Shown here: piece after piece, positions 6,221 through 18,034 of the stretch | How the letters are laid out: the number at the start of each line of letters is the position of its first letter | Numbering within the stretch: position 1 is the first letter of the stretch | Source: Comamonadaceae bacterium | Lineage (GTDB): Bacteria > Pseudomonadota > Gammaproteobacteria > Burkholderiales > Burkholderiaceae_C | Reading direction: 5' to 3' | DNA length: 38,193 nt | NCBI GenBank assembly: GCA_947378275.1 | Contig: CANCJD010000004.1 | Span: 1-38,193, forward strand | The notes under the pieces: generated by a model | What the model was told of the DNA's origin: nothing | The model's input: the letters and a program-made list of their open reading frames with translations, nothing else | Databases searched by the model: none | Position numbers and translations under genes: made by a program

Positions 6221-8389
6221 TCAGGCCGGGGCAGCGCCGCCTGCGCTTGCTTGCAAGTGCCGCTGCGCCATCTGCAAATACCAATCCAGGCAGCCCGGAT
6301 TGGCCATGGCTTCCTTGTTCACCACTTTTTCCAGCGGGTGGCCGAGCATCAGCTTTTTGATCGGCAGCTCCTGTTTTTTGCCCGACAAGGTGCGCGGAAT
6401 TTCTGCCACCTGGAGAATAGCGTTGGGCAAAAAGCGCGGGCTCAGTGCGTTGCGAATGGCTTGTTGGATGCGCGCAGTCAGCGCCGCATCGAGCGTCAGG
6501 CCTGGGCGCAGCACTACAAACAGGGGCATATAACTTTCGCGTCCCAGGTATTCCAGGTCCACCACCATGCTGTCCATTACCTCGGGCAGGGCTTCCACGG
6601 CGCTGTAGATTTCGCTGGTGCCCATGCGCAGGCCGTGGCGGTTGATGGTGGCGTCGCTGCGGCCAAAAATCACGCAGCCGTAACCCGCGCTTTGGGAGTT
6701 GTCCGTACTTTTGGCGTTTCCGATCCGCAGCCAGTCGCCGTGGCGCCAGACGCCGCCCGTCTCTGCGCCCAGGTCGCCACCGCCGGGCTTGCGGCCGTGG
6801 CCTGGCGGGTACATCTCAAAGTAACTCGCCAGGTAGCGCGCGTTGGCCGTGTCGCCCCAAAAATACAGGGGCATGGACGGAATAGGCTGGGTGCAGACCA
6901 GTTCGCCCACTTCGCCCAGCACCGGGTCGCCGGCCTCGTTCCAGGATTCGACTGCGCAACCCAATAGGCGGCATTGCATGACACCGGGCTCTTGCACCAA
7001 TTCGCGGTTGCCGCCAATGAAGGCGCCGCAAAAGTCGGTGCCGCCCGAAATATTGCACCACCAGATGTCAAAGTCAGGCTGCGCCGAATCGGTCTGCTGG
7101 TGAATGCGGCGAAATTGTCCGGTGCCCCAGATTTGTGTCTCGGGCGCTAGTGGCGAGCCAGTGGTGCCCAGCGCGCGCACCTGACTCAGGTCGCCCAGTG
7201 TGGCCAGATCAAGCCCGGCTTTTTGGCAGTTGGCAAAAAACGCCGCGCCTGCGCCAAAAAAGGTGACGCCCGTCTCGGCCGCAAAGCGCCACAGCGTGCC
7301 CCAGTCCGGGCGGTCTTTGTCGCCTGCGGGGTTGCCGTCGTAAATGACGCAGGTGGTGCCATTGAGCAAGCCGCTGAGCTGCGCGTTCCACATCACCCAG
7401 CCGGTGGAGCTGTACCAGTGGTAGCGCTCGCCAAAGCTGTTGGGGTGGTAGCTGCAGCCGATGTCGTTGTGCAAAATCTTGAGCGCCAGCGCCACGATCA
7501 CCGTGCCGCCATGGCCGTGCACGATGGGCTTGGGCAGGCCGGTGGTGCCGCTGGAATACACAATCCACAGCGGGTGGTCAAAGGGCAGCCACAAAGGCGT
7601 AAAGCCAGCCACTGCGTCGTCGTCGCGCGCAGTGGTGTGGGCCATGGGTGTGGCGTCATTCACGGCGCCCGCAGGGTTCAGATCGCCCAGGTTGTGGTGC
7701 ACGATGAGGTGCTGCACGCTAGGGAGTGCGGCGCGCAGTTCTTGCACCACGGCGCGGCGGTCCAGGTCGCGCCCGGCGTAGCGTACGCCGTCCACGGCAA
7801 TCAAAATCTTGGGCTCGATTTGCCTAAATCGGTCGAGCACCGCCGCCGTGCCCATGTCGGGGGCGCAAATGCTCCACACGCCGCCCAGCGACACCGTGGC
7901 CAAAAACGCCACCATGGCCTCGGGAATATTGGGCAAATAGGCGGCTACGCGGTCGCCTGGCTGCAGGCCGTGGGCTTGCAGGTGCAGCGCCAGGGACGCG
8001 ACTTGGCGACGCAACTCGGGCCAGCAAATTTCCTGGTGGTCACCGCGCTCGTTGCGCGACACCAGCGCTGGCAAGCCCGCCGCATGTGCGGCGTCCACAT
8101 GGCGCAGCACCTGGTGGGCGTAATTGGTCTGCGCACCGACAAACCACTGCGCCCCGGGCATCACATTGTGTTGCAGCACCGCGCTGTGGGTCGTAGGCGA
8201 GCGCAGGTCAAAGTAGTCCCAGATGCTTTGCCAAAACGCGTCGAGGTCGGTCACGGACCACTCCCACAGCGTCTGGTAATCGGCAAAGCGCAGGCCGCGC
8301 TGTGCTTGCAGCCAGTCTTGGTACAGCCTGACTTGTGGCACGTGGGGGGCAGGGGCGGGGCGGGCGGTGGCGTGCAAGGGGGATGTCAT
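6221..8389 (-). CDS. aacS: Acetoacetyl-CoA synthetase (acetoacetate-CoA ligase)
   Basis: Cytosolic ANL-superfamily ligase of 722 residues that activates acetoacetate with ATP and CoA. The AMP-binding P-loop YSSGTTGLPKPIVHGHGG, the ASICAPD-like WSICAPDMG block, the adenylation motif FGRSDATINRHGLRMGTSEIY and the catalytic-lysine tail LSGKKQELPIKKL are all present. Family features specific to AacS are the N-terminal WSVTDLDAFWQSIWDYF segment and NISGGTDFCGAFIGG. It feeds ketone bodies or PHB breakdown products into acetyl-CoA metabolism. The ORF track extends to 8554, but the ATG at 8389 is preceded by a -10-like TACGCT at a leaderless distance and the extension lies in the divergent promoter region. 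The gene is somewhat longer than the usual 650-690 residues because of a Pro-rich N-terminus. Divergently transcribed from the amidase operon. Confidence 0.9.
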   Translation of the reverse strand: MTSPLHATARPAPAPHVPQVRLYQDWLQAQRGLRFADYQTLWEWSVTDLDAFWQSIWDYFDLRSPTTHSAVLQHNVMPGAQWFVGAQTNYAHQVLRHVDAAHAAGLPALVSRNERGDHQEICWPELRRQVASLALHLQAHGLQPGDRVAAYLPNIPEAMVAFLATVSLGGVWSICAPDMGTAAVLDRFRQIEPKILIAVDGVRYAGRDLDRRAVVQELRAALPSVQHLIVHHNLGDLNPAGAVNDATPMAHTTARDDDAVAGFTPLWLPFDHPLWIVYSSGTTGLPKPIVHGHGGTVIVALALKILHNDIGCSYHPNSFGERYHWYSSTGWVMWNAQLSGLLNGTTCVIYDGNPAGDKDRPDWGTLWRFAAETGVTFFGAGAAFFANCQKAGLDLATLGDLSQVRALGTTGSPLAPETQIWGTGQFRRIHQQTDSAQPDFDIWWCNISGGTDFCGAFIGGNRELVQEPGVMQCRLLGCAVESWNEAGDPVLGEVGELVCTQPIPSMPLYFWGDTANARYLASYFEMYPPGHGRKPGGGDLGAETGGVWRHGDWLRIGNAKSTDNSQSAGYGCVIFGRSDATINRHGLRMGTSEIYSAVEALPEVMDSMVVDLEYLGRESYMPLFVVLRPGLTLDAALTARIQQAIRNALSPRFLPNAILQVAEIPRTLSGKKQELPIKKLMLGHPLEKVVNKEAMANPGCLDWYLQMAQRHLQASAGGAAPA

Positions 8390-8396
8390 GGGCCCA

Positions 8397-8402
8397 AGCG
8401 TA
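8397..8402 (-). promoter_or_regulatory. -10-like element for aacS, leaderless spacing
   Basis: On the minus strand TACGCT is followed by seven bases and then the aacS ATG at 8389. No Shine-Dalgarno sequence lies between them. The same arrangement recurs before at least six other genes in the window. Confidence 0.35.
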
Positions 8403-8438
8403 CCAGCGCTCGGCGCGGCGCGGCAGTGTGGAAATCCC

Positions 8439-8457
8439 TGCACCAGCATGGTGTGCA
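8439..8457. promoter_or_regulatory. NtrC-like enhancer dyad
   Basis: TGCACCAGCATGGTGTGCA reads as GCACC-N5-GGTGT, one base away from the GCACC-N5-GGTGC core of NtrC sites, and closely resembles the classic glnA enhancer. Its centre lies about 51 bases before the start predicted from the sigma-54-like element at 8472, closer than the usual 100 or more bases. It sits between aacS and the amidase operon. Confidence 0.5.
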
Positions 8458-8471
8458 GAATCGCGGTTTTA

Positions 8472-8486
8472 TGGCGCAGTAGTTGC
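8472..8486 (+). promoter_or_regulatory. Sigma-54-like -24/-12 promoter of amidase operon
   Basis: TGGCGC-N5-TTGC keeps the invariant GG and GC separated by exactly ten bases; TGGC and TTGC match consensus and the run continues TTGCTT. The predicted start is near 8498, two bases before the chosen ATG at 8500. An NtrC-like dyad lies just upstream. Confidence 0.5.
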
Positions 8487-8499
8487 TTAAAGGATGTAC

Positions 8500-9900
8500 A
8501 TGACTTTCCATATGGGTGCAAACGCCCTTGATGACTTGTTGAACTCACCCGCAATGGGCGTGCAAGGCCTGCATGCAGCCTACCAGCGGCGGCAATTGCG
8601 GCCCTCGCAAGTGGTGGAGCGTTCGCTGGCCCTGGCGCGCGCGAGCGAACCCGGCTTGTTTACCTGCCTGCTCGAAGCGCGCGCCCTGTCCGAGGCCCGC
8701 GCCAGCGACGCGCGCTGGGACGCCGGGCGCCCACTCGGCCCCCTGGACGGCGTGCCTGTGGTCTGGAAAGACCTGTTTGACGTGGAAGGCACGCCTACCA
8801 CGGCGGGCTCGGAGACCCGTCGCCACGCCGCGGTGGCGACTGAGGACGCGTTTGCGGTGCAACGCCTGGCCGTGCGCGGCTGCGTCAGCCTGGGCAAAGT
8901 GGGGCTGAGCGAATTTGCCTATTCGGGTCTGGGCCTGAATCCGCACTTTGGCACGCCTGTGAACCGCGCCAGCGTGGATGGCCACCGCGCGCCGGGTGGC
9001 TCGTCCAGCGGCTCGGCCGTGGCGGTGGCCGCGCGCATGGCCTGGATTGGCATGGGCACCGACACCGGTGGCTCGGTGCGTGTGCCTGCGGCCTTTAACG
9101 GACTGGTGGGCTTTAAACCGTCCATTGGGCACTTTGACAAGCGCGGCGTTTTTCAACTGTCGCAGACCTTGGATGTGCCCGGACCCCTTGCCAACACCGT
9201 ACAAGACTGCGCCTGGGTGGACGCTGCGCTGCGTGGCCACCCGCTGCAACCACTGCAAGCCAGTGCGGTGGCTGGAATGGCGTTTGTGGTGCCCACCAAC
9301 CTGGTGTTTGAAGGCATAGAGCCGGAAGTGCGCGCCGCTTTTGAGCTGCTGCTGGAGCGCCTGCGCGCCGCGGGCGCCCACATTGCGCACCGGCACATCG
9401 CCGCGTTTGACGAACTGGCCGCGCTTACCGCGCGCCACGGCACTATCGCTGCGGCCGAAGCCTATTTCTTTCACCAGTCGCTGGTCGATGGCCCGCAGGC
9501 CGGCGCCATGGACCGGCGCGTGCTGGCGCGCTTGGCGCGCGGCAAAACCATGTCCGCCCTCGATTTGCTTACCGTGCAGGCAGCCCATGTGCGCCTGCGC
9601 CACGAATGCGCGGCGCTCTTGGGCGAGGCCTGGATGCTTTGCCCCACGGTGGTGCACGTGGCGCCTTTGGTGGCGCCCCTGGAGGCAGACGACGAACTGT
9701 TTCACAGCACCAACTTGCGCACCCTGCAAAACACCTTGCCGGGCAACTTTTTGGACCTGTGTGGCGTGAGCTTGCCCATGGGCACGGGTGCCGCAGGCAT
9801 GCCGCTGGGCGCGCTGATTTCGGGTGCGGCCGGGCGTGATGCGGCACTCTTGGCCGCGGCGGCCGGCGTGGAGCAACTGCTCGTAGCCAAGGATTCATAG
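8500..9900 (+). CDS. Amidase-signature family amidase
   Basis: Amidase of 466 residues with the complete Ser-cisSer-Lys triad of the amidase-signature family: Lys90 in PVVWKDLFDVEG, the cis-Ser in APGGSSSGSA (about 168-170) and the nucleophile Ser192 in GTDTGGSVRVPAA. It hydrolyses a linear amide to acid and ammonia; relatives include GatA, AtzF and half-amidases. First gene of a four-gene plus-strand unit, followed after 21 bases by an imidase-type enzyme, which suggests it may cut the half-amide that a ring-opening enzyme would release (inference). The start is ambiguous: ATGs occur at 8494, 8500 and 8512. The AAAGGA at 8488-8493 favours 8500, but if the sigma-54-like promoter is used the transcript begins at about 8498 and that Shine-Dalgarno sequence would not be transcribed. 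Confidence 0.88.
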   Translation: MTFHMGANALDDLLNSPAMGVQGLHAAYQRRQLRPSQVVERSLALARASEPGLFTCLLEARALSEARASDARWDAGRPLGPLDGVPVVWKDLFDVEGTPTTAGSETRRHAAVATEDAFAVQRLAVRGCVSLGKVGLSEFAYSGLGLNPHFGTPVNRASVDGHRAPGGSSSGSAVAVAARMAWIGMGTDTGGSVRVPAAFNGLVGFKPSIGHFDKRGVFQLSQTLDVPGPLANTVQDCAWVDAALRGHPLQPLQASAVAGMAFVVPTNLVFEGIEPEVRAAFELLLERLRAAGAHIAHRHIAAFDELAALTARHGTIAAAEAYFFHQSLVDGPQAGAMDRRVLARLARGKTMSALDLLTVQAAHVRLRHECAALLGEAWMLCPTVVHVAPLVAPLEADDELFHSTNLRTLQNTLPGNFLDLCGVSLPMGTGAAGMPLGALISGAAGRDAALLAAAAGVEQLLVAKDS

Positions 9901-9915: not shown

Positions 9916-9921
9916 ATGGGT

Positions 9922-10806
9922 ATGGCTAAGGAAATCTTGTGTGGTTTTGGGGTGGACGTGGACGCGGTGGCCGGTTGGCTGGGCTCTTATGGTGGCGAGG
10001 ATTCGCCCGACGATATTTCGCGCGGCCTGTTTGCCGGCGAGGTAGGTTCGCCCCGCCTGCTCAAGCTCTTTGAGCGCATGGGCATCAAGACCACCTGGTT
10101 TATTCCCGGCCATTCGATTGAAACCTTTCCTGCGCAAATGCAGGCCGTGGCCGATGCGGGACACGAGGTTGGCATCCACGGCTATTCGCACGAAAACCCG
10201 ATCGCCATGACCCCGGCGCAAGAAGAAGCGGTGCTTGACAAGTGCATTGCGCTGGTGGAGCAGCTCTCGGGCAAGCGGCCCACGGGCTATGTGGCGCCAT
10301 GGTGGGAATTTTCCAAAGTGACCAACGAGCTGCTGGTGAAAAAAGGCATCAAGTACGACCATTCGCTGATGCACAACGACTTTTCGCCCTATTACGTGCG
10401 CGTGGGCGATAGCTGGACGCCGATTGATTACGGCAAAAAGCCCGGCGAGTGGATGGTCCCGCTGCAACGCGGTACCGAGACCGACCTGATCGAAATCCCG
10501 GCCAACTGGTATCTCGACGACCTGCCGCCCATGATGTTCATCAAAAAGTCGCCCAACAGCCACGGCTTTGTGAACCCGCGCGACATTGAACAAATGTGGC
10601 GCGACCAGTTTGACTGGGTCTACCGCGAAATGGACTACGCCGTGTTTCCCATCACCATCCATCCTGACGTGGCCGGCCGCCCCCAGGTGCTGCTGATGCT
10701 CGAGCGCCTGTTTGCCTATATCAAGTCGCACCCCGGCGTGCGCTTTGTGACCATGGACGAGATGGCCAACGACTTTGCGGCGCGCCAACCGCGCGCCAAG
10801 GCCTAA
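9922..10806 (+). CDS. Polysaccharide-deacetylase-fold hydrolase, HpPgdA/imidase type
   Basis: Metal-dependent hydrolase of 294 residues with the NodB/CE4-like fold. Its sequence closely follows the family of Helicobacter pylori PgdA from its first residues ([28 protein letters not shown]), and the HpPgdA metal ligands Asp14, His86 and His90 fall at identical positions (VDVDAVAG and HGYSH). As I recall, bacterial cyclic-imide hydrolases belong to this same subfamily. No signal peptide is present, so action on peptidoglycan is unlikely and cytosolic opening of a cyclic imide or ureide fits better, especially beside an amidase. The ATG at 9922 is chosen because of the well-placed AAGGAG. Downstream, a CobW-type GTPase could help load its metal. 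The substrate is not determined by sequence. Confidence 0.87.
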
Positions 10807-10818
10807 GTTCCGCGCTCC

Positions 10819-11118
10819 ATGTGCGGCGTTTGCGGCTCGCTGGGCGGCGAGGAACACTGGACCAGCGGTGCGGGCCGCATCCTGGGTGATAGCGCCCCCA
10901 CGCGCCGAGCCGAGCGGGCCCGGCGTATTCGGGTGATCAACCGCGCGCTCCTTCCCTTGCGCGTGACCGTGAGTGACTGGCAGGGGCGGCTTTATTGGGT
11001 GGCCGGCCCCACCGGCAAACAAATGGTGGTCGATAGCCTGCCCCATATTTGGCAGGCCGCGCAAGAAATCACCGGCCGCAGCTTGGACCCGCTGGCACCT
11101 TCCGTCCTTGTTGCATGA
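10819..11118 (+). CDS. Small MCGVCG protein coupled to CobW GTPase
   Basis: Unrecognised 99-residue protein beginning MCGVCGSLGGEEHW. The CxxC at residues 2-5, the His at 13 and the strongly basic middle (RRAERARRIRVINRALL) are followed by a hydrophobic, beta-rich segment (LPLRVTVSDWQGRLYWVAG) and a C-terminal helix. The N-terminus looks like that of class II glutamine amidotransferases (MCGICG) but the protein is far too short to be one. It starts 12 bases after the deacetylase stop, and its stop overlaps the CobW start as ATGA, so the three genes are very probably translated together. A metal-binding or carrier role beside the CobW metallochaperone is possible but is inference only. No signal peptide. 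Confidence 0.78.
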   Translation: MCGVCGSLGGEEHWTSGAGRILGDSAPTRRAERARRIRVINRALLPLRVTVSDWQGRLYWVAGPTGKQMVVDSLPHIWQAAQEITGRSLDPLAPSVLVA

Positions 11119-12152
11119 CGGAGCGCATTCCTGTCAACGTGCTGACGGGCTTTTTGGGCTCGGGAAAAACCAGCTTGCTCAACCGCCTGCTGCGCGACCC
11201 GCTGTTTAACAACTGTGCGGTACTCATCAACGAATTTGGCGATATCGGCATTGACCACCACCTGGTGGACCGGGTGGACGGCGACATGGTGTTGCTGCAG
11301 TCGGGCTGCATTTGTTGCACCATCCGCGGCGACCTGGCCACCGCCATGCGCGACCTGTATGACCGGCGCGAGCGCGGCGAGATTCCTGCTTTCGTGCGTT
11401 TGGTGATCGAGACCACCGGCCTGGCCGACCCGGTACCCGTGCTGTCCACCGTGATGTACGACCGGGTGCTGCAGCACCACTTTCGCGTGGGCAATGTGGT
11501 GACCACGGTCGATGGGGTCAACGGCGCCGCCAATCTGGGTCAGTACCCCGAATGCCAAAAACAAGCGGCCGTGGCCGATCGCTTGGTGATTACCAAGCTC
11601 GACATTGCCGACGCGGCGCAGACCCCGGCGCTTTATGCCCAATTGGCTCGGGTCAACCCCGGCGCGCCTTGTCTGGCGCTGAACGCGGTGCAGCTCGACG
11701 CCCGCAGTCTGCTGGGCGTGGATGCGTTTGACCTGAGCAGCAAAAGCGACGAAGTGGCCCAATGGCTGCAATCCCCCCGCCAGCGCAACTACTTGTCGCT
11801 GGGCGCAAGCGCGGCAGCAGGCGCCAAGGCCAACGCCAATGTGCACCGCGATATCGTGGCATTTGCCTTGGACTTGCCTGAAACCGTGGATTGGACGGTG
11901 TTCAGCGTGTGGCTGTCTTTGCTGCTGCACGCCCATGGCGCGCAGATTTTGCGGGTCAAGGGCTTGCTGAACGTGGAAGGCGCGGACGCGCCTGTGGTGG
12001 TGCACGGCGTGCAGCAGCTGGTGCATCCGCCCAGCCACCTGGAGCGCTGGCCCACTGCGGACCGAAGTTCGCGCCTGGTGTTCATCGTGCGCGGTTTAGA
12101 GCCCAAGCCCATACAGGACTCGCTGACCCGCTATCTGCGCGACTGCAGCTGA
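11115..12152 (+). CDS. CobW/COG0523 family GTPase, probable metallochaperone
   Basis: P-loop GTPase of 345 residues. Walker A is TGFLGSGKTSLL (about residues 11-22), the metal-binding CxCC is GCICC (Cys65, Cys67, Cys68), the switch region reads ETTGLADP and the guanine-specificity motif is TKLD. A C-terminal CobW_C domain ends near RGLEPKPIQDSLTRYL. Members use GTP hydrolysis to deliver zinc, cobalt or iron to target enzymes. Genomic context, last in a unit with a metal-dependent deacetylase-fold hydrolase, suggests that enzyme or its paralogue in the leftward unit as client. The start at 11115 overlaps the stop of the 99-residue gene; the track's start at 11049 is rejected because it lies inside that gene. 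There is no His-rich loop of the ZigA/YeiR type. Confidence 0.9.
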   Translation: MTERIPVNVLTGFLGSGKTSLLNRLLRDPLFNNCAVLINEFGDIGIDHHLVDRVDGDMVLLQSGCICCTIRGDLATAMRDLYDRRERGEIPAFVRLVIETTGLADPVPVLSTVMYDRVLQHHFRVGNVVTTVDGVNGAANLGQYPECQKQAAVADRLVITKLDIADAAQTPALYAQLARVNPGAPCLALNAVQLDARSLLGVDAFDLSSKSDEVAQWLQSPRQRNYLSLGASAAAGAKANANVHRDIVAFALDLPETVDWTVFSVWLSLLLHAHGAQILRVKGLLNVEGADAPVVVHGVQQLVHPPSHLERWPTADRSSRLVFIVRGLEPKPIQDSLTRYLRDCS

Positions 12153-12171
12153 AAGCTTGCGCATTGCGCTG

Positions 12172-12184
12172 GTGCAACTTGCAC
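12172..12184. repeat. Thirteen-base dyad GTGCAA-C-TTGCAC
   Basis: Six-base perfect arms around a single base, 19 bases after the CobW stop and about 150 bases upstream of the ABC operon start. The left arm includes TGGTGCA, a perfect half of an NtrC site. It may be an operator or a chance dyad. Confidence 0.35.
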
Positions 12185-12264
12185 ATATGCCTGCGCACTA
12201 GAAAAAAGCACCGCACCAAAACAAAGCAAATCTGAAGCGCAGCGCCCAGGCGAAGCTACTTTTG

Positions 12265-12315
12265 TACGCAAACATGCTGCAGATTGTGGACAAAAATTGG
12301 CACGCTGTTTGCGTA
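12265..12315. repeat. Nine-base inverted repeat flanking the ABC promoter
   Basis: TACGCAAAC (12265-12273) and GTTTGCGTA (12307-12315) are perfect inverted copies with 33 bases between. The second copy covers the -12 part of the sigma-54-like promoter and runs into GTATAC. Two related half-palindromes (TTTGTACGCAAA and TTGCGTATACAA) resemble operators of GntR/FCD regulators, and such a regulator is encoded in the operon. Confidence 0.5.
12298..12312 (+). promoter_or_regulatory. Sigma-54 promoter of ABC transporter operon
   Basis: TGGCACG-N4-TTGC is an exact match to the sigma-54 consensus with GG and GC ten bases apart. The predicted start is about 12324, two bases before the ATPase ATG at 12326, so the transcript would be leaderless. 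A weak NtrC-like site (GCACCA at 12213, then GCA) lies about 100 bases upstream. Confidence 0.62.
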
Positions 12316-12325
12316 TACAAGACGC

Positions 12326-13369
12326 ATGAACGCACCGTCCTATCCTTCTTCAGCGGCCATCGAATTGGTCGGTCTGACCAAGCGCTATGCGCCCGGTGCC
12401 AAGCCGGCAGTCGACAGCATCAATCTGCGCATTGCCAGTGGCAGTTATTGCTGTTTGCTCGGGCCCTCCGGTTGCGGGAAAAGCACCACCTTGCGCATGG
12501 TGGCCGGACATGAATCGGTGACTGAGGGCGACATTCTTTTAGAGAATCGCAACATTACCGACCTGCCGGCTGCTGCACGTGGCACGGCCATGATGTTCCA
12601 GAGCTTTGCCTTGTTTCCGCACCTGAGCGCGCTGGACAACGTGGCCTTCAGCCTCAAGATGAAAGGTGTGGCCAAGGCTGCGCGCCTGGAGCAAGCCCGC
12701 AGCCTGCTCGACCGCGTGGCCATGGGCCATTTGGCCGAGCGCAAGCCCGGAGAACTCTCCGGCGGCCAGCAGCAGCGCGTGGCCTTGGCGCGCGCACTGA
12801 TTACCCAGCCGCGCGTGTTGCTGCTCGACGAGCCCTTGTCCGCGCTGGATCCGTTTTTGCGCATCCAGATGCGCGCCGAATTGCGTCGCTGGCAAAAGGA
12901 ATTGGGCCTGACCTTTATCCATGTGACCCACTCGCAAGAAGAGGCGATGGCCCTGGCCGACACGATGGTCGTGATGAACCACGGCGTGATCGTGCAAAGT
13001 GGCTCACCCCACGAGATTTACAACCGCCCAGCCAACGAATTTGTCGCTCGCTTCATGGGCGGTCACAACGTCATTGATACGCCAGCCGGCAAGATCGGTG
13101 TGCGCACCGACCACATCGCACTGTCACCCGCGCAAGCCGCAGACGAAGCAGGTGCACATGCGCAAATCGCGTTGGTGTCGGACGTGGAATACCAAGGCAC
13201 CTACGTGCTGGTCGGACTCCAAAGCCCGGGCGCATCCCACACGGCGCACAGCACGGCGCAATGGTCGGTCATGTTGCTTGAGGCCGCTTTTTCCGCACGG
13301 CCGCTGAATGTCGGCGACACGGTGCGCATGTCCTGGGCGCCCGAAGTCGAGCACCGGCTAGCCGACTGA
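12326..13369 (+). CDS. ABC transporter ATPase, PotA-like
   Basis: Cytoplasmic ATPase of 347 residues in the spermidine/putrescine-iron class of importers. Walker A GPSGCGKST, Q-loop MMFQSFALFPHLS, signature LSGGQQQRVALARAL, Walker B VLLLDEPLSALD and the switch His in HVTHSQEEAM are intact. A C-terminal TOBE-like domain begins around residue 250 (IDTPAGKIGVRTDHIAL). It energises uptake with the two permeases and the binding protein downstream. The ATG at 12326 starts MNAPSYPSS; no Shine-Dalgarno sequence is seen, matching the near-leaderless promoter. The track's extra 14 codons contain the promoter itself and are rejected. Substrate class is uncertain: PotA-like ATPases serve polyamines but also opines, amides and other small organic nitrogen compounds. 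Confidence 0.92.
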   Translation: MNAPSYPSSAAIELVGLTKRYAPGAKPAVDSINLRIASGSYCCLLGPSGCGKSTTLRMVAGHESVTEGDILLENRNITDLPAAARGTAMMFQSFALFPHLSALDNVAFSLKMKGVAKAARLEQARSLLDRVAMGHLAERKPGELSGGQQQRVALARALITQPRVLLLDEPLSALDPFLRIQMRAELRRWQKELGLTFIHVTHSQEEAMALADTMVVMNHGVIVQSGSPHEIYNRPANEFVARFMGGHNVIDTPAGKIGVRTDHIALSPAQAADEAGAHAQIALVSDVEYQGTYVLVGLQSPGASHTAHSTAQWSVMLLEAAFSARPLNVGDTVRMSWAPEVEHRLAD

Positions 13370-13454
13370 TTCCTGTTTTGAAGTAAGCCTTTTTTCCCCT
13401 GTGTTCCACCCCCTCGCTTCGCAAGAAGTTTTTCATCCCCAAGGAGTTTTCCCC

Positions 13455-14741
13455 ATGTCGAATGATTCGAAAGAAGTCCTCAGCACCGCTGCCCCGGTGC
13501 AGCGCCGCACCTTGCTCAAGGGCACGGCTGGTATCTTGGCCGCTGGCGTGTTCCCTGCCGTGCATTCCGCCGACCCCATCGTGTTGCGCTACCTGGGCAC
13601 CGCAGTGAACCAGGACAAGGAAATCGCCGAAAAATTCAAGTCCGACACCGGCGGCAAAGTGGTCATCCAGTACGTGGCCGTGACGACCGACGACGTCTTG
13701 AAGCGCGCCATCACCTCGCCCAACAGCTTTGATTTGCTCGATTCCGAGTACTTCCAGTTGCGCAACCTGGTGCCCACCGGAAACCTCAAGGGCATTGATA
13801 CCAAGCGCATCAAAAACGCGGACAAAATCACCTCGGTGTTTACCACCGGCAAGGTGGCCGGCAAGACCATTGGCGATCAAGGAACGGCCCCCAAGAAAGT
13901 GATCTTTCTGGAAGGCGAAAAGTCCAAGACGTTCGCCAGCAGCCCAACCCAGTACATGTCGCTCATCCCCACGACCTACAACGCTGACACGCTTGGAATC
14001 CGTCCTGACTTGATCAAGCGTCCCATCACGTCCTGGGCCGAGTTGTTGAACCCCGAGTTCAAGGGCAAGGCATCGATTTTGAACATTCCCTCCATCGGCA
14101 TCATGGACGCGGCCATGGTGGTGGAAGCCATGGGCATCTACAAGTACCCCGACAAGGGCAATATGACCAAGAAGGAAATTGACCTGACCATCAAGACCCT
14201 GATTGAAGCCAAAAAACAAGGCCAGTTCCGCAGCCTGTGGAAAGACTTCAATGAGTCCGTCAACCTGATGGCCTCGGGCGAAGTGGTGATTCAGTCCATG
14301 TGGAGCCCCGCTGTTACTGCGGTGCGCACCAAGGGCATTGCCTGCACTTTCCAGCCACTCAAAGAGGGCTATCGCTCATGGGCATCGGGCTTTGGCATGC
14401 CTTCGACCCTGACCGGCAAAAAGCTCGATGGCGCTTACGAGTTCATCAACTGGTTCCTCGACGGCTGGGCAGGTGCCTATCTGAACCGCCAGGGCTACTA
14501 CAGCGCCGTGCTGGAAACCGCCAAGTCCAAGATGGACGCCTACGAGTGGGCCTACTGGATGGAAGGCAAGCCTGCGACCCAAGACATCAAGAGCCCGCAC
14601 GGCGACTTGCTGGCCAAGGCCGGTGAAACACGCGACGGCGGCAGCTACGAGCAGCGCATGGGCGCAGTAGCTTGCTGGAACGCCCTGATGGACGAAAACG
14701 TCTACATGGTGCAAAAGTGGAACGAGTTTGTCGCAGCCTAA
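13455..14741 (+). CDS. ABC transporter substrate-binding protein, PotD-like with Tat-type signal
   Basis: Periplasmic solute-binding protein of 428 residues. The N-terminus holds a twin-arginine style signal, QRRTLLKGTAGILAAGVFPAVHSA, suggesting export in folded form. The mature part follows the PotD/extracellular solute-binding family 1 pattern (VLRYLGTAVNQDKEIAEKFKSDTGGKV, ITSWAELLNPEFKGKASI, FINWFLDGWAGAYLNRQGYYS). Start chosen at 13455 because AAGGAG (13441-13446) stands eight bases upstream; the track's earlier start has no support. The 85-base gap after the ATPase is pyrimidine-rich and shows no obvious terminator. The protein selects the ligand of the importer, so it is the best handle on the substrate of the whole cluster. 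Confidence 0.92.
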   Translation: MSNDSKEVLSTAAPVQRRTLLKGTAGILAAGVFPAVHSADPIVLRYLGTAVNQDKEIAEKFKSDTGGKVVIQYVAVTTDDVLKRAITSPNSFDLLDSEYFQLRNLVPTGNLKGIDTKRIKNADKITSVFTTGKVAGKTIGDQGTAPKKVIFLEGEKSKTFASSPTQYMSLIPTTYNADTLGIRPDLIKRPITSWAELLNPEFKGKASILNIPSIGIMDAAMVVEAMGIYKYPDKGNMTKKEIDLTIKTLIEAKKQGQFRSLWKDFNESVNLMASGEVVIQSMWSPAVTAVRTKGIACTFQPLKEGYRSWASGFGMPSTLTGKKLDGAYEFINWFLDGWAGAYLNRQGYYSAVLETAKSKMDAYEWAYWMEGKPATQDIKSPHGDLLAKAGETRDGGSYEQRMGAVACWNALMDENVYMVQKWNEFVAA

Positions 14742-14785
14742 GCGATAAAGCCTGAATCCCCAATGGAACAACGGATGATTTCACT

Positions 14786-15700
14786 ATGAGCGCTGCTGTC
14801 ACACAGTCATCCGTGGGTTCCGGTTTGCCATCAGGTCGCAGTCTTGCGGCCTGGTGGCAGGCATTGCCTTTGACCCTGGTTTTCTCCCTGTTTTTTCTGG
14901 TGCCGCTGGCACTGGTGCTGATGGTGAGTTTTTGGGACTACAACCAGTACGAGTTGATTCCCGGCTTTACTTTCAAAAGCTATATCGCGATTTTTGAGGG
15001 ATGCGGCAGCGGTGACGAACTGTGCACCACCTTCAAGACCTATGTCTCGACCCTCAAGTTCAGCGCCCTGGTGTGGTTGATCACACTGCTGGTGGGCTTT
15101 GCGGTGTCTTATTTTTTGGCGTTTTGCGTGCGCTCCAGCGGTGCGCAAACGCTGCTCTTTGTGCTGTGCACGATTCCTTTTTGGACGTCCAACGTCATCC
15201 GCATGGTGTCCTGGGTGCCGCTGCTCGGGCGCAACGGGCTGGTGAACCAGGCCCTGGTGGGCATCGGCCTGGTGCAGCAACCGGTGGAATGGATGCTGTT
15301 CTCGGACTTTTCGGTGGTGCTGGCCTTTGTGCACCTCTACACCATGTTCATGATCGTTCCCATCTTCAACTCCATGATGCGCATTGACCGCAGCCTGATC
15401 GAGGCAGCCAGCGACGCGGGTGCCAGCGCCTGGCAGACGCTGTGGAACGTGATCGTGCCGCTGTGCCGCACCGGCATCATCATTGGTTCGATTTTTGTGA
15501 TCACCATCGTGATGGGCGACTTTGTCACCATCGGCGTGATGGGCGGGCAGCAAATTGCCTCGGTGGGCAAGATCATCCAGGTACAGGCGTCCTACCTGCA
15601 GTTTCCGCTGGCGGCGGCCAACGCCATCATTTTGCTGGCCATCGTTTTGATGATCATCTGGGCGCTCACCCGCCTCGTGGACATCCGTAAGGAGTTGTAA
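14786..15700 (+). CDS. ABC transporter permease, PotB-like
   Basis: Inner-membrane permease of 304 residues with about six transmembrane helices. The first helix is LTLVFSLFFLVPLALVLMVSFW, and the cytoplasmic EAA loop that contacts the ATPase reads IEAASDAGASAWQTLWNVIVPL. It follows the PotB/CysU pattern with a periplasmic segment after TM1 containing two Cys (EGCGSGDELCTTFK), a somewhat unusual pair that could form a disulfide. Start at 14786 lies 44 bases after the binding-protein gene; only a weak GGA precedes it. It stops immediately before the ATG of the second permease, so the two halves of the channel are made together. Confidence 0.92.
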   Translation: MSAAVTQSSVGSGLPSGRSLAAWWQALPLTLVFSLFFLVPLALVLMVSFWDYNQYELIPGFTFKSYIAIFEGCGSGDELCTTFKTYVSTLKFSALVWLITLLVGFAVSYFLAFCVRSSGAQTLLFVLCTIPFWTSNVIRMVSWVPLLGRNGLVNQALVGIGLVQQPVEWMLFSDFSVVLAFVHLYTMFMIVPIFNSMMRIDRSLIEAASDAGASAWQTLWNVIVPLCRTGIIIGSIFVITIVMGDFVTIGVMGGQQIASVGKIIQVQASYLQFPLAAANAIILLAIVLMIIWALTRLVDIRKEL

Positions 15701-16582
15701 ATGGCTGCCGAAAAACGTTCTGCTGGCTACTGGCCTCTGGCCCTGTTTTTTGCCGCCTTTGTGCTGTTTTTGTACGGCCCCATGCTGGTGATCGTGGTGC
15801 TCAGTTTTCAGGGGCCTGAGGGCGGCCTGACCTTTCCGCTGCGCGGTGTCTCGCTGCACTGGTTTTACAAGCTGGCCGAGGGCCTGGGCGTGGTGGACAT
15901 TGGTGCGGCGCTAAAACGCTCGCTCGGTCTGGGCTTGGTGGTAATGGCGATTACGGTGGTGTTTTCGGTGCTGGCAGGTCTGGCATTTCGCAAAAAGCTG
16001 CGCGGTGGGAATTTGCTGTTTTTTGTGGTGGTGGCCAGTTTGATCATGCCTTCCATCATTGTCTCGCTCGGTATCGGTCTGGAGTTTCGCTTGCTGGACA
16101 CGGCCCTGAAGGCGGTTTTTACAGCCTTGGAAATGGAAGACACCTTGTCTGAATTTGGCACGTCCATGGGCTTGTTCACCTCCGCCCTGGGTGCGCACCT
16201 GACCTGGACGCTGCCTTTTGGCCTCTTGATCATGTTTGCGATTTTTAACCGCTTTAACCCGGCCTATGAAGAGGCAGCGCGCGACCTGGGCGCTACGCCC
16301 TGGCAGGGATTTCGCCATGTGGTTCTGCCATTGATTGCGCCTTCGATTGTGGGCATCGGCATGTTTGGATTCACCCTGAGTTGGGACGAAATCGCCCGCA
16401 CCTCGCAGGCCATTGGCGACGTCAACACCTTGCCCCTCGAACTGCAGGGCTTGACCAGCACCGTCACCACGCCCTCGATTTATGCCCTGGGTACGGTGAC
16501 CATGGTCGTGTCCTTTCTGGTGATGGGCCTCACGGTCGGCTTGGCCCGCTTGCTGGAAAAACGCCAGCGCGCCGCGCCATGA
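15701..16582 (+). CDS. ABC transporter permease, PotC-like
   Basis: Second inner-membrane permease, 293 residues, of the PotC type, with about six transmembrane helices. The EAA loop is YEEAARDLGATPWQGFRHVVLPL, and the ending GLARLLEKRQR is basic as expected for a cytoplasmic tail. The AAGGAG at 15689-15694, six bases before the ATG, overlaps the last codons of the first permease. Its stop overlaps the ATG of the GntR gene (ATGA), so the regulator is co-translated with the transporter. With the partner permease, ATPase and binding protein it forms one complete importer. Confidence 0.92.
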   Translation: MAAEKRSAGYWPLALFFAAFVLFLYGPMLVIVVLSFQGPEGGLTFPLRGVSLHWFYKLAEGLGVVDIGAALKRSLGLGLVVMAITVVFSVLAGLAFRKKLRGGNLLFFVVVASLIMPSIIVSLGIGLEFRLLDTALKAVFTALEMEDTLSEFGTSMGLFTSALGAHLTWTLPFGLLIMFAIFNRFNPAYEEAARDLGATPWQGFRHVVLPLIAPSIVGIGMFGFTLSWDEIARTSQAIGDVNTLPLELQGLTSTVTTPSIYALGTVTMVVSFLVMGLTVGLARLLEKRQRAAP

Positions 16583-17313
16583 ACGCCAAGGCGGAAGCCC
16601 TCAGCTGGACCGAAGAGGGTATTTACCAGCGCATGGTGCAAACCATCCGCGACCACCAGTTGCACCCCGGCACCAAGCTCGGCGAAGACCGCTTGGCCAG
16701 CGCCTTTGGCGTGTCGCGCACCCGCATTCGCCCGGTGCTCGCACGCCTGGCGGGCGAGCAGGTGGTCACACTGACGCCCAACCGGGGCGCCACTGTGGCC
16801 CGCCCCACCGAGCAAGAGGCGCGCGAGGTCTTTCAGGCGCGCCGCCTGATTGAGCCCACACTGGTCGCTGCCTTTATGGCGCGCGCCAGCAGCGCCGAAC
16901 TGCGGACGCTGGGCCACTGCATCACCCAGGAAGAAGCCGCCCGCACCCAAGGCGAGCGCCATCGCGCCATTCGGCTCGCCGGTGAGTTTCATTTGCACAT
17001 TGCGCGGTTTTCGCAACACCAGACCCTGGGCCGCATCATGGGCGAATTGGTGTCGCGCACCTCGCTCGTGCTTATGGCCTATGGGCAGCCAGCCGACCTG
17101 GGCCAGGGCCCGACATCCAGCGCTTGCGGCTGCCACGACCACCGCGCCTTGCTCGACGCGATGCGCTTGGGCGACCGCCCGCTGGCCGAGCAGTTGATGC
17201 AAGCGCATTTGCGCGGCCTGGAGTCGCAGTTGCGTTTTGCCCCAGCCCGCGCCCAGGTTCCGGACTTCAATGCTTTGTTTCAACCCGCTTATGCCACGGC
17301 TGCTACTGATTAA
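16579..17313 (+). CDS. GntR-family transcriptional regulator, FCD domain
   Basis: DNA-binding regulator of 244 residues. The N-terminal winged helix-turn-helix includes GIYQRMVQTIRDHQLHPGTKLGEDRLASAFGVSRTRIRPVLARL; the recognition helix has RIRPVLARL in place of the common VREALxRL. The C-terminal FCD (FadR-like) domain keeps the metal/ligand histidines in EFHLHIARF, HDHRALLDAM and AHLRGLESQL. Such proteins bind a small organic acid or related effector and usually repress catabolic or transport genes. It is coupled by ATGA to the permease and overlaps the racemase gene by 23 bases, so it is almost certainly the local regulator. Possible operators are the inverted repeats at 12265-12315, one of which covers the -12 region of the ABC promoter. 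Effector unknown. Confidence 0.9.
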   Translation: MNAKAEALSWTEEGIYQRMVQTIRDHQLHPGTKLGEDRLASAFGVSRTRIRPVLARLAGEQVVTLTPNRGATVARPTEQEAREVFQARRLIEPTLVAAFMARASSAELRTLGHCITQEEAARTQGERHRAIRLAGEFHLHIARFSQHQTLGRIMGELVSRTSLVLMAYGQPADLGQGPTSSACGCHDHRALLDAMRLGDRPLAEQLMQAHLRGLESQLRFAPARAQVPDFNALFQPAYATAATD

Positions 17314-18034
17314 TCCCAATACCTCGGCAGGTGTCAGCGCGCTGGTGCTACGCCACGCCCAGGACGCGGTCGGGCACCGGGCGCAGATTGAGGTGGTGAC
17401 TGCGCGCTTTGGCGCACCCTATATTGCCTGCGAAGCCAGTTTTGCTGTGGCCGCGCATGCGGTGCTGGACGCCTGGGCTGCCGCCCAGCTTGCGGTGCAA
17501 ACTGCGGGCCAGGCGCCGTATGACGCAGTGCTGATCGCCTGTTTTGGCGACCCCGGCCTGCTGGCGCTGCGCCAGATGTGCCCAGTACCCGTCACCGGGC
17601 TGGCCGAGGCGGCGTTTTTGCAGGCTTCGGGCCAGGGTCGATTTGCCATCGTGACCGGTGGCGCGGCCTGGGAGCCCATGCTCGCGCGCCTGGCGCACAG
17701 CCTGGGGTACGGGCAAAGTCTGGCCGCCATCCATACCGTGGCCGCAACCGGTGCGGAGCTCGCGCGTGACCCGGTGGCCGCGCACGCCTTGTTGTGCGAC
17801 GCTTGCAGTACGGTGGCCGCAGCCAGTGGCGCGGCATCGGTGATTTTGGGTGGCGCCGGTTTGGCGGGCATGGCGCAGGCCGTGCAGCCAGGCGTGCCGG
17901 TGCCGGTGATTGACAGCGTGGTGGCTGGTGTGCAGCACGCGCTGGCGCTGTGCGGCACACCGGTGGCGCCGCATACATCCTTGGGCTTTGCCTGGCAAGC
18001 CGTGTCGTCGGAGCTGGCGGCTACCGGCGCCTGA
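17291..18034 (+). CDS. Asp/Glu/hydantoin racemase family protein
   Basis: Cytosolic protein of 247 residues with the family start LLLINPNTS and the first catalytic cysteine motif IACFGDPG (Cys84). Hydantoin and allantoin racemases use a second Cys in a LGCAGM-like motif; here that position is Gly188 in ILGGAGLAGM, so classical two-base racemisation is doubtful. Single-Cys members of the superfamily include arylmalonate decarboxylase, which shows that other chemistry is possible. The ATG at 17291 overlaps the end of the GntR gene, and the track's start at 17237 lies further inside it. Last gene of the ABC unit; it converges with the GGT-like gene 15 bases away. Context with two allantoinase-like hydrolases points to a cyclic ureide or hydantoin-like substrate. 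Confidence 0.85.
   Translation: MPRLLLINPNTSAGVSALVLRHAQDAVGHRAQIEVVTARFGAPYIACEASFAVAAHAVLDAWAAAQLAVQTAGQAPYDAVLIACFGDPGLLALRQMCPVPVTGLAEAAFLQASGQGRFAIVTGGAAWEPMLARLAHSLGYGQSLAAIHTVAATGAELARDPVAAHALLCDACSTVAAASGAASVILGGAGLAGMAQAVQPGVPVPVIDSVVAGVQHALALCGTPVAPHTSLGFAWQAVSSELAATGA

Follow-up and report, generated by a model that had tools for sequence, protein, structure and literature searches.

Sigma-54 promoters under nitrogen control, and the leaderless mRNAs of rhizobia, are the described systems closest to the locus analysed here. In Burkholderia cenocepacia, NtrC activates a potA-potD pair and is needed for the use of acetamide and allantoin (PMC5491218), and the hydantoin racemase and PotD families are listed in a survey of predicted sigma-54 regulons (PMC12316311). 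Leaderless mRNAs of Sinorhizobium and Bradyrhizobium start at or adjoining the ATG (PMC3616915, PMC4842269). Within the genus of the present locus, the promoters of glnA and glnK have the form TGGCAC-N5-CTGC, with TGCAC-N7-GTGCA 79-140 bp upstream, and their leaders of about 50-90 nt carry a Shine-Dalgarno sequence; in a scan over all spacers, the exact GCAC/GTGC pairs at these genes had a spacer of 7 in 16 of 17 cases. We found no paper devoted to the gene cluster described below or to leaderless mRNAs from sigma-54 promoters.

The window, that is, the whole stretch of 38,193 nt analysed here, belongs to a draft genome of 2.2 Mb and 70% completeness. Its relatives with a name are drafts labelled Comamonadaceae and Rhodoferax sp. 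Neither rpoN nor a full-length ntrC was found in this 70% complete draft. Since 58 of the 61 related-set genomes encode rpoN and ntrC scores above the cut-off in 9 of the 12 genomes tested, sister genomes included, incompleteness of the draft best explains why both are missing. The glnK gene of the source genome itself (L082) offers a canonical sigma-54 site and NtrC-site standards for comparison.

Gene content and the intergenic region

The genes relevant to this work are the following:

6221-8389, minus strand: divergent acetoacetate-CoA ligase (NF002937, 923 bits)
8500-9900, plus strand: amd, amidase (PF01425, Pfam E 2.5e-72)
9916-10806, plus strand: enzyme of the polysaccharide deacetylase family, weakly PuuE-like
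11049-12152, plus strand: CobW-type GTPase
12326-16582, plus strand: ABC transporter genes of the potA-potD-potB-potC type (polyamine-like class)
16580-17313, plus strand: GntR/FCD regulator gene (PF00392 and PF07729)
17288-18034, plus strand: gene of the Asp/Glu/hydantoin racemase family (PF01177)

The nearest NCBIfam model for amd, the amidase PRK06102, scores slightly under its cut-off. The cluster probably serves nitrogen scavenging or supply, and the amidase was apparently added to it in this clade. The first-pass annotation had placed an NtrC-like dyad and a sigma-54-like promoter in the intergenic region ahead of the amidase, and both the placement and the positions proved correct: the ligase starts at ATG 8389 on the minus strand and amd at ATG 8500, and the 110 bp between them hold the dyad TGCACCAGCATGGTGTGCA at 8439-8457 and the element TGGCGCAGTAGTTGC at 8472-8486. 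The following features of this region enter the argument:

8430-8444, no strand assigned: block GGAAATCCCTGCACC, which in the alignment and upstream listing is kept in a wider range of relatives than the dyad's right half
8438-8458, no strand assigned: dyad CTGCAC-N9-GTGCAG, not of NtrC geometry, with a spacer of 9 conserved in the close clade
8472-8486, plus strand: sigma-54-like -24/-12 element of amd, TGGCGC-AGTAG-TTGC, with the start predicted at about 8498
8488-8493, plus strand: Shine-Dalgarno-like AAAGGA of amd (the letters themselves at about 8489-8494), conserved as AGGA/GGAG in orthologs

Conservation of the element upstream of amd

The GG-N10-GC geometry claimed for the right-hand motif is present (GG at 8473-8474, GC at 8485-8486). 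We compared 15 distinct orthologous amd upstream regions, nearly all of them beside the same divergent ligase. The TGGC/TTGC element is intact in 13, each time 13 nt before the ATG and with no indel between the two, and T or A follows TTGC in every intact copy. In an alignment right-anchored at the ATG, TGGC (-28 to -25) and GTTGC (-18 to -14) stand out from the poorly conserved sequence between them. On the amd tree the eight core columns require 0.62 parsimony steps each, versus 3.4 for the spacer, 3.6 for upstream sequence and 2.7 for third codon positions, and none of 17 slid layouts matched the conservation of the core. The element at 8472-8486 is under clear purifying selection. As aligned, the columns under constraint coincide with those of sigma-54 promoters, even though the AC of TGGCAC never occurs at the amd element and is replaced by GC, CC or CT. 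The G preceding TTGC (G-18) is also invariant, which counts against a sigma-54 reading because sigma-54 does not require such a G. The element is lost or broken in L013 and altered in L046; when its loss was compared with loss of the operon, L013 fitted a link between the two and L017 and L043 did not.

It is this conservation, rather than the single sequence, that lifts the sigma-54-like element above chance. The co-occurrence of dyad and promoter had been called unlikely by chance, a claim that fails on the window alone, where neither motif exceeds expectation: with up to two mismatches, TGGCAC-N5-TTGCA occurs 28 times versus 28.2 expected, and TGCACC-N5-GGTGCA 7 times versus 5.6. A search of 8300-8600 showed no sigma-70-type promoter. 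Two further candidates were rejected: a structured RNA leader of amd, which folds no better than shuffles, and a conserved short upstream ORF (ATG GCG CAG TAG or similar), whose stop is lost in L006, L016, L017, L043, L046 and L052.

With GG-N10-GC, TGGC and TTGC, the amd element resembles known sigma-54 promoters such as those of glnA and glnK-amtB in the genus. It differs from the genus glnA and glnK promoters in having GC, CC or CT for AC, a predicted leader of about 2 nt rather than about 50-90 nt, and a Shine-Dalgarno-like sequence within the promoter.

The potA promoter

Scanning the cluster's other gene starts turned up an exact TGGCAC-N5-TTGC before potA, the sole copy in the window, together with candidate regulatory sites upstream of it:

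12160-12176, plus strand: another NtrC-like site, in which the half TGGTGC is conserved; distance to the potA sigma-54 site 121 bp
12212-12228, plus strand: NtrC-like site of which one half, GCACCAAAA, is good; distance to the potA sigma-54 site 69 bp
12262-12293, plus strand: GntR-type operator pair TTGTACGCAA-N12-TTGTGGACAA, 0.03 expected by chance, kept in relatives
12298-12312, plus strand: canonical sigma-54 promoter of potA, TGGCAC-GCTGT-TTGC, with the start predicted at about 12324 and the ATG at 12326

By these features, the best candidate for an NtrC/sigma-54 promoter in the cluster is that of potA, 3.8 kb downstream of the amd element. The site lies 13 nt before the ATG in the window and 12-15 nt before it in 12 distinct sequences from three genera, most of which carry the exact consensus. 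All clade orthologs examined keep it, and two other genera (L136 and L137) have it with a single mismatch. A blind search of 60 genus genomes for TGGCAC-N5-TTGC followed by an ATG recovered potA in three further species, where the distances are 12, 13 and 15 nt; no peak in the distance from sigma-54 site to ATG across genomes was seen among the matches listed, which are full of coding matches.

Each of the two NtrC-like dyads upstream of potA has only one good half in the window; the N7 dyads are perfect in L141 and L142 and near-complete in L122 and L125, and the exact GCAC/GTGC pairs at potA mostly have a spacer of 7. The GntR/FCD regulator, whose gene (16580-17313) belongs to the same operon as potA, probably has the TTGTACGCAA/TTGTGGACAA pair as its operator. 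In the simplest model, potA would be activated by NtrC and sigma-54 in response to nitrogen, with substrate control exerted by the GntR protein. At potA as at amd, the sigma-54-type element stands 13 nt ahead of the ATG. The potA promoter departs from the amd element in its exact TGGCAC, its NtrC-like sites, its GntR-type operator pair and, in the source genome, the lack of a Shine-Dalgarno sequence.

The sigma-54 half of the first-pass annotation therefore gains support from the strong conservation of precisely the -24/-12 core, from rpoN in 58 of 61 related genomes and from a canonical potA promoter at an equal offset. Based on these comparisons, we judge it somewhat likelier than not that the right-hand motif is a sigma-54 element.

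Start sites and translation initiation

Sigma-54 transcripts start 12 nt after the GC of the -12 element. At amd and at potA the predicted starts consequently fall 2 nt before the ATG, so that the mRNAs would be near-leaderless. Shine-Dalgarno sequences before potA are absent in the window and in L122, L124, L126 and L018, and a leaderless mRNA is therefore the natural reading for this gene. At amd the Shine-Dalgarno sequence changes position among orthologs yet remains intact; since it would fall outside the predicted transcript, it fits a near-leaderless amd mRNA poorly, and its location upstream of the predicted start is the main doubt on the sigma-54 reading.

We propose the following model, to which we give only slightly better than even confidence. 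The stretch 8472-8486 would be a real RpoN element for amd and one of two sigma-54 promoters in the cluster. Sigma-54 polymerase bound there would start near 8498, two nucleotides ahead of ATG 8500, so that the amd mRNA would be almost without a leader, like the one predicted for potA, whose canonical and putatively NtrC-linked site would be the cluster's second sigma-54 promoter. The dyad at 8438-8458, with its spacer of 9, would be a separate operator, whose target may be amd, the divergent ligase or both genes. Our confidence stays near one half because either amd has a second, upstream promoter, none of which could be recognised in 8300-8600, or sigma-54 does not use the element as a promoter. 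If the model is correct, the amidase and polyamine-class transporter cluster of Rhodoferax-like bacteria would be under nitrogen (sigma-54) control.

A more far-reaching proposal, which we put forward tentatively and regard as rather doubtful, is that sigma-54 promoters with their GC 12-15 nt before the ATG give leaderless or near-leaderless mRNAs at both potA and amd. This would couple nitrogen control to leaderless translation, and the amd Shine-Dalgarno sequence would be silent, used only by transcripts from other promoters. In position at the ATG, the predicted starts of amd and potA resemble those of the Sinorhizobium and Bradyrhizobium leaderless mRNAs; the promoter motif there is sigma-70-like (TGnTA), unlike the sigma-54 motif here. 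A recurrent sigma-54 promoter about 13 nt from a start codon is unusual, and it allows a simple test of leaderless sigma-54 transcripts.

Could TGGC...GTTGC...AGGA instead act at the RNA level? As an element of translation initiation within an amd leader whose transcription begins at a promoter further upstream, one with a poor match to sigma-70, it would resemble a sigma-54 site by accident. A conserved Shine-Dalgarno sequence can work only within an mRNA, G-18 and the entire GTTGC block continue directly into it, and CAGAAT-like sequences near -44 could provide a weak -10. Against this stand conserved columns at exactly -24/-12, separated by a spacer that varies in sequence and keeps its length, the equal offset at potA of an exact sigma-54 consensus, the failure of any fold to beat shuffles and of our search to find an upstream promoter. 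We consider this explanation unlikely, and retain the RpoN element as the preferred reading of 8472-8486.

The dyad

The first-pass annotation had gone further and proposed that under nitrogen limitation NtrC binds the dyad at 8439-8457 and stimulates sigma-54 polymerase at 8472-8486. The likeness behind this proposal is real: GCACC-N5-GGTGT is, as claimed, one base off GCACC-N5-GGTGC, and the 5-bp arms of the dyad are identical to those of the NtrC enhancers (TGCAC-N7-GTGCA). NtrC and RpoN exist in the genus, NtrC-like sites accompany the potA promoter of the same cluster, and potA/potD genes and amide use are controlled by NtrC in B. cenocepacia (PMC5491218). The spacer, however, is 9 and not 7. 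In close relatives the dyad is kept as TGCAC-N9-GTGCA, the exact GCAC/GTGC pairs at amd have a spacer of 9 and never 7 in the scan over all spacers, and the N7 position reads GTGTG. L012 has changed a base required by the N7 (NtrC) half while preserving the N9 arms. With a matrix built from the NtrC sites of the genus, a check that the first-pass annotation had suggested, the dyad ranks only seventh in the window.

Distribution and distance argue in the same direction. The dyad is absent in L006, L014, L015, L017, L018, L043 and L052, all of which keep the sigma-54 element, and the NtrC reading is unsupported for this reason; in addition, no N7 site with fewer than two mismatches occurs within 500 bp in any orthologous amd upstream region. 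The gap between dyad and element, given earlier as 15 bases, is 14 nt in the window, and the dyad's distance of 16 bp from the promoter is far below the 79-140 bp of NtrC sites at genus glnA and glnK, so that the concern already voiced over a short enhancer-promoter distance was justified. Taken as a whole, activation of amd by NtrC from this dyad seems quite improbable to us. On the alignment evidence, the dyad is best described as a conserved putative operator and not an NtrC enhancer; the comparison of orthologs thus tells a conserved promoter from a look-alike enhancer. No convincing activator site at amd was found in the orthologous upstream regions, and the dyad is present in part of the orthologs.

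In L010 (2930-2960), a 7-bp insertion repeating CAGAAT lies between dyad and sigma-54 element, and the spacing between the two is accordingly not fixed. A search of 103 genomes for further dyads returned, beyond the amidase loci, several matches in recurrent near-identical groups, which are probably coding since the longest open frame over the match exceeds 280 codons at most loci.

The divergent ligase and other observations

A scheme in which the dyad and the wider GGAAATCCCTGCACC block belong to the divergent ligase, with no sigma-54 promoter behind the transcription of amd, is in our estimation very unlikely: the block is common to the whole intergenic region and the ligase has an extended -10 without a good -35, as expected of an activated promoter, but the conservation of the TGGC/TTGC core beside amd would be left unexplained.

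At the ligase itself, the extended -10 TGGTA(G/C)GCT is conserved 7 nt from the ATG (8389-8405 in the window, minus strand), and neither a good -35 nor an evident Shine-Dalgarno sequence was seen. From this arrangement, the ligase mRNA is probably leaderless and of the sigma-70 type, its promoter resembling the TGnTA leaderless motif (PMC4842269).

A recurrent TGGCA(C/T)TGGAATTGC site near ntrC was rejected as a promoter, being coding sequence of ntrB: in nine of nine genomes examined (L065:3793 and its equivalents in L066-L073) it lies inside ntrB, in conserved histidine-kinase codons. Our first sigma-54 matrix is not relied on here, since it included this site and its background count consisted partly of the orthologous sites themselves.

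Among clade orthologs, the products of the deacetylase gene (9916-10806) and of potD (13455-14741) are 97-100% identical and the amidases 76-94%. Loci from other genera (L136, L137, L123 and L128) carry the deacetylase-CobW-pot-racemase cluster without the amidase, and in G035 and G112 the amidase adjoins the ligase and the remaining cluster is absent.
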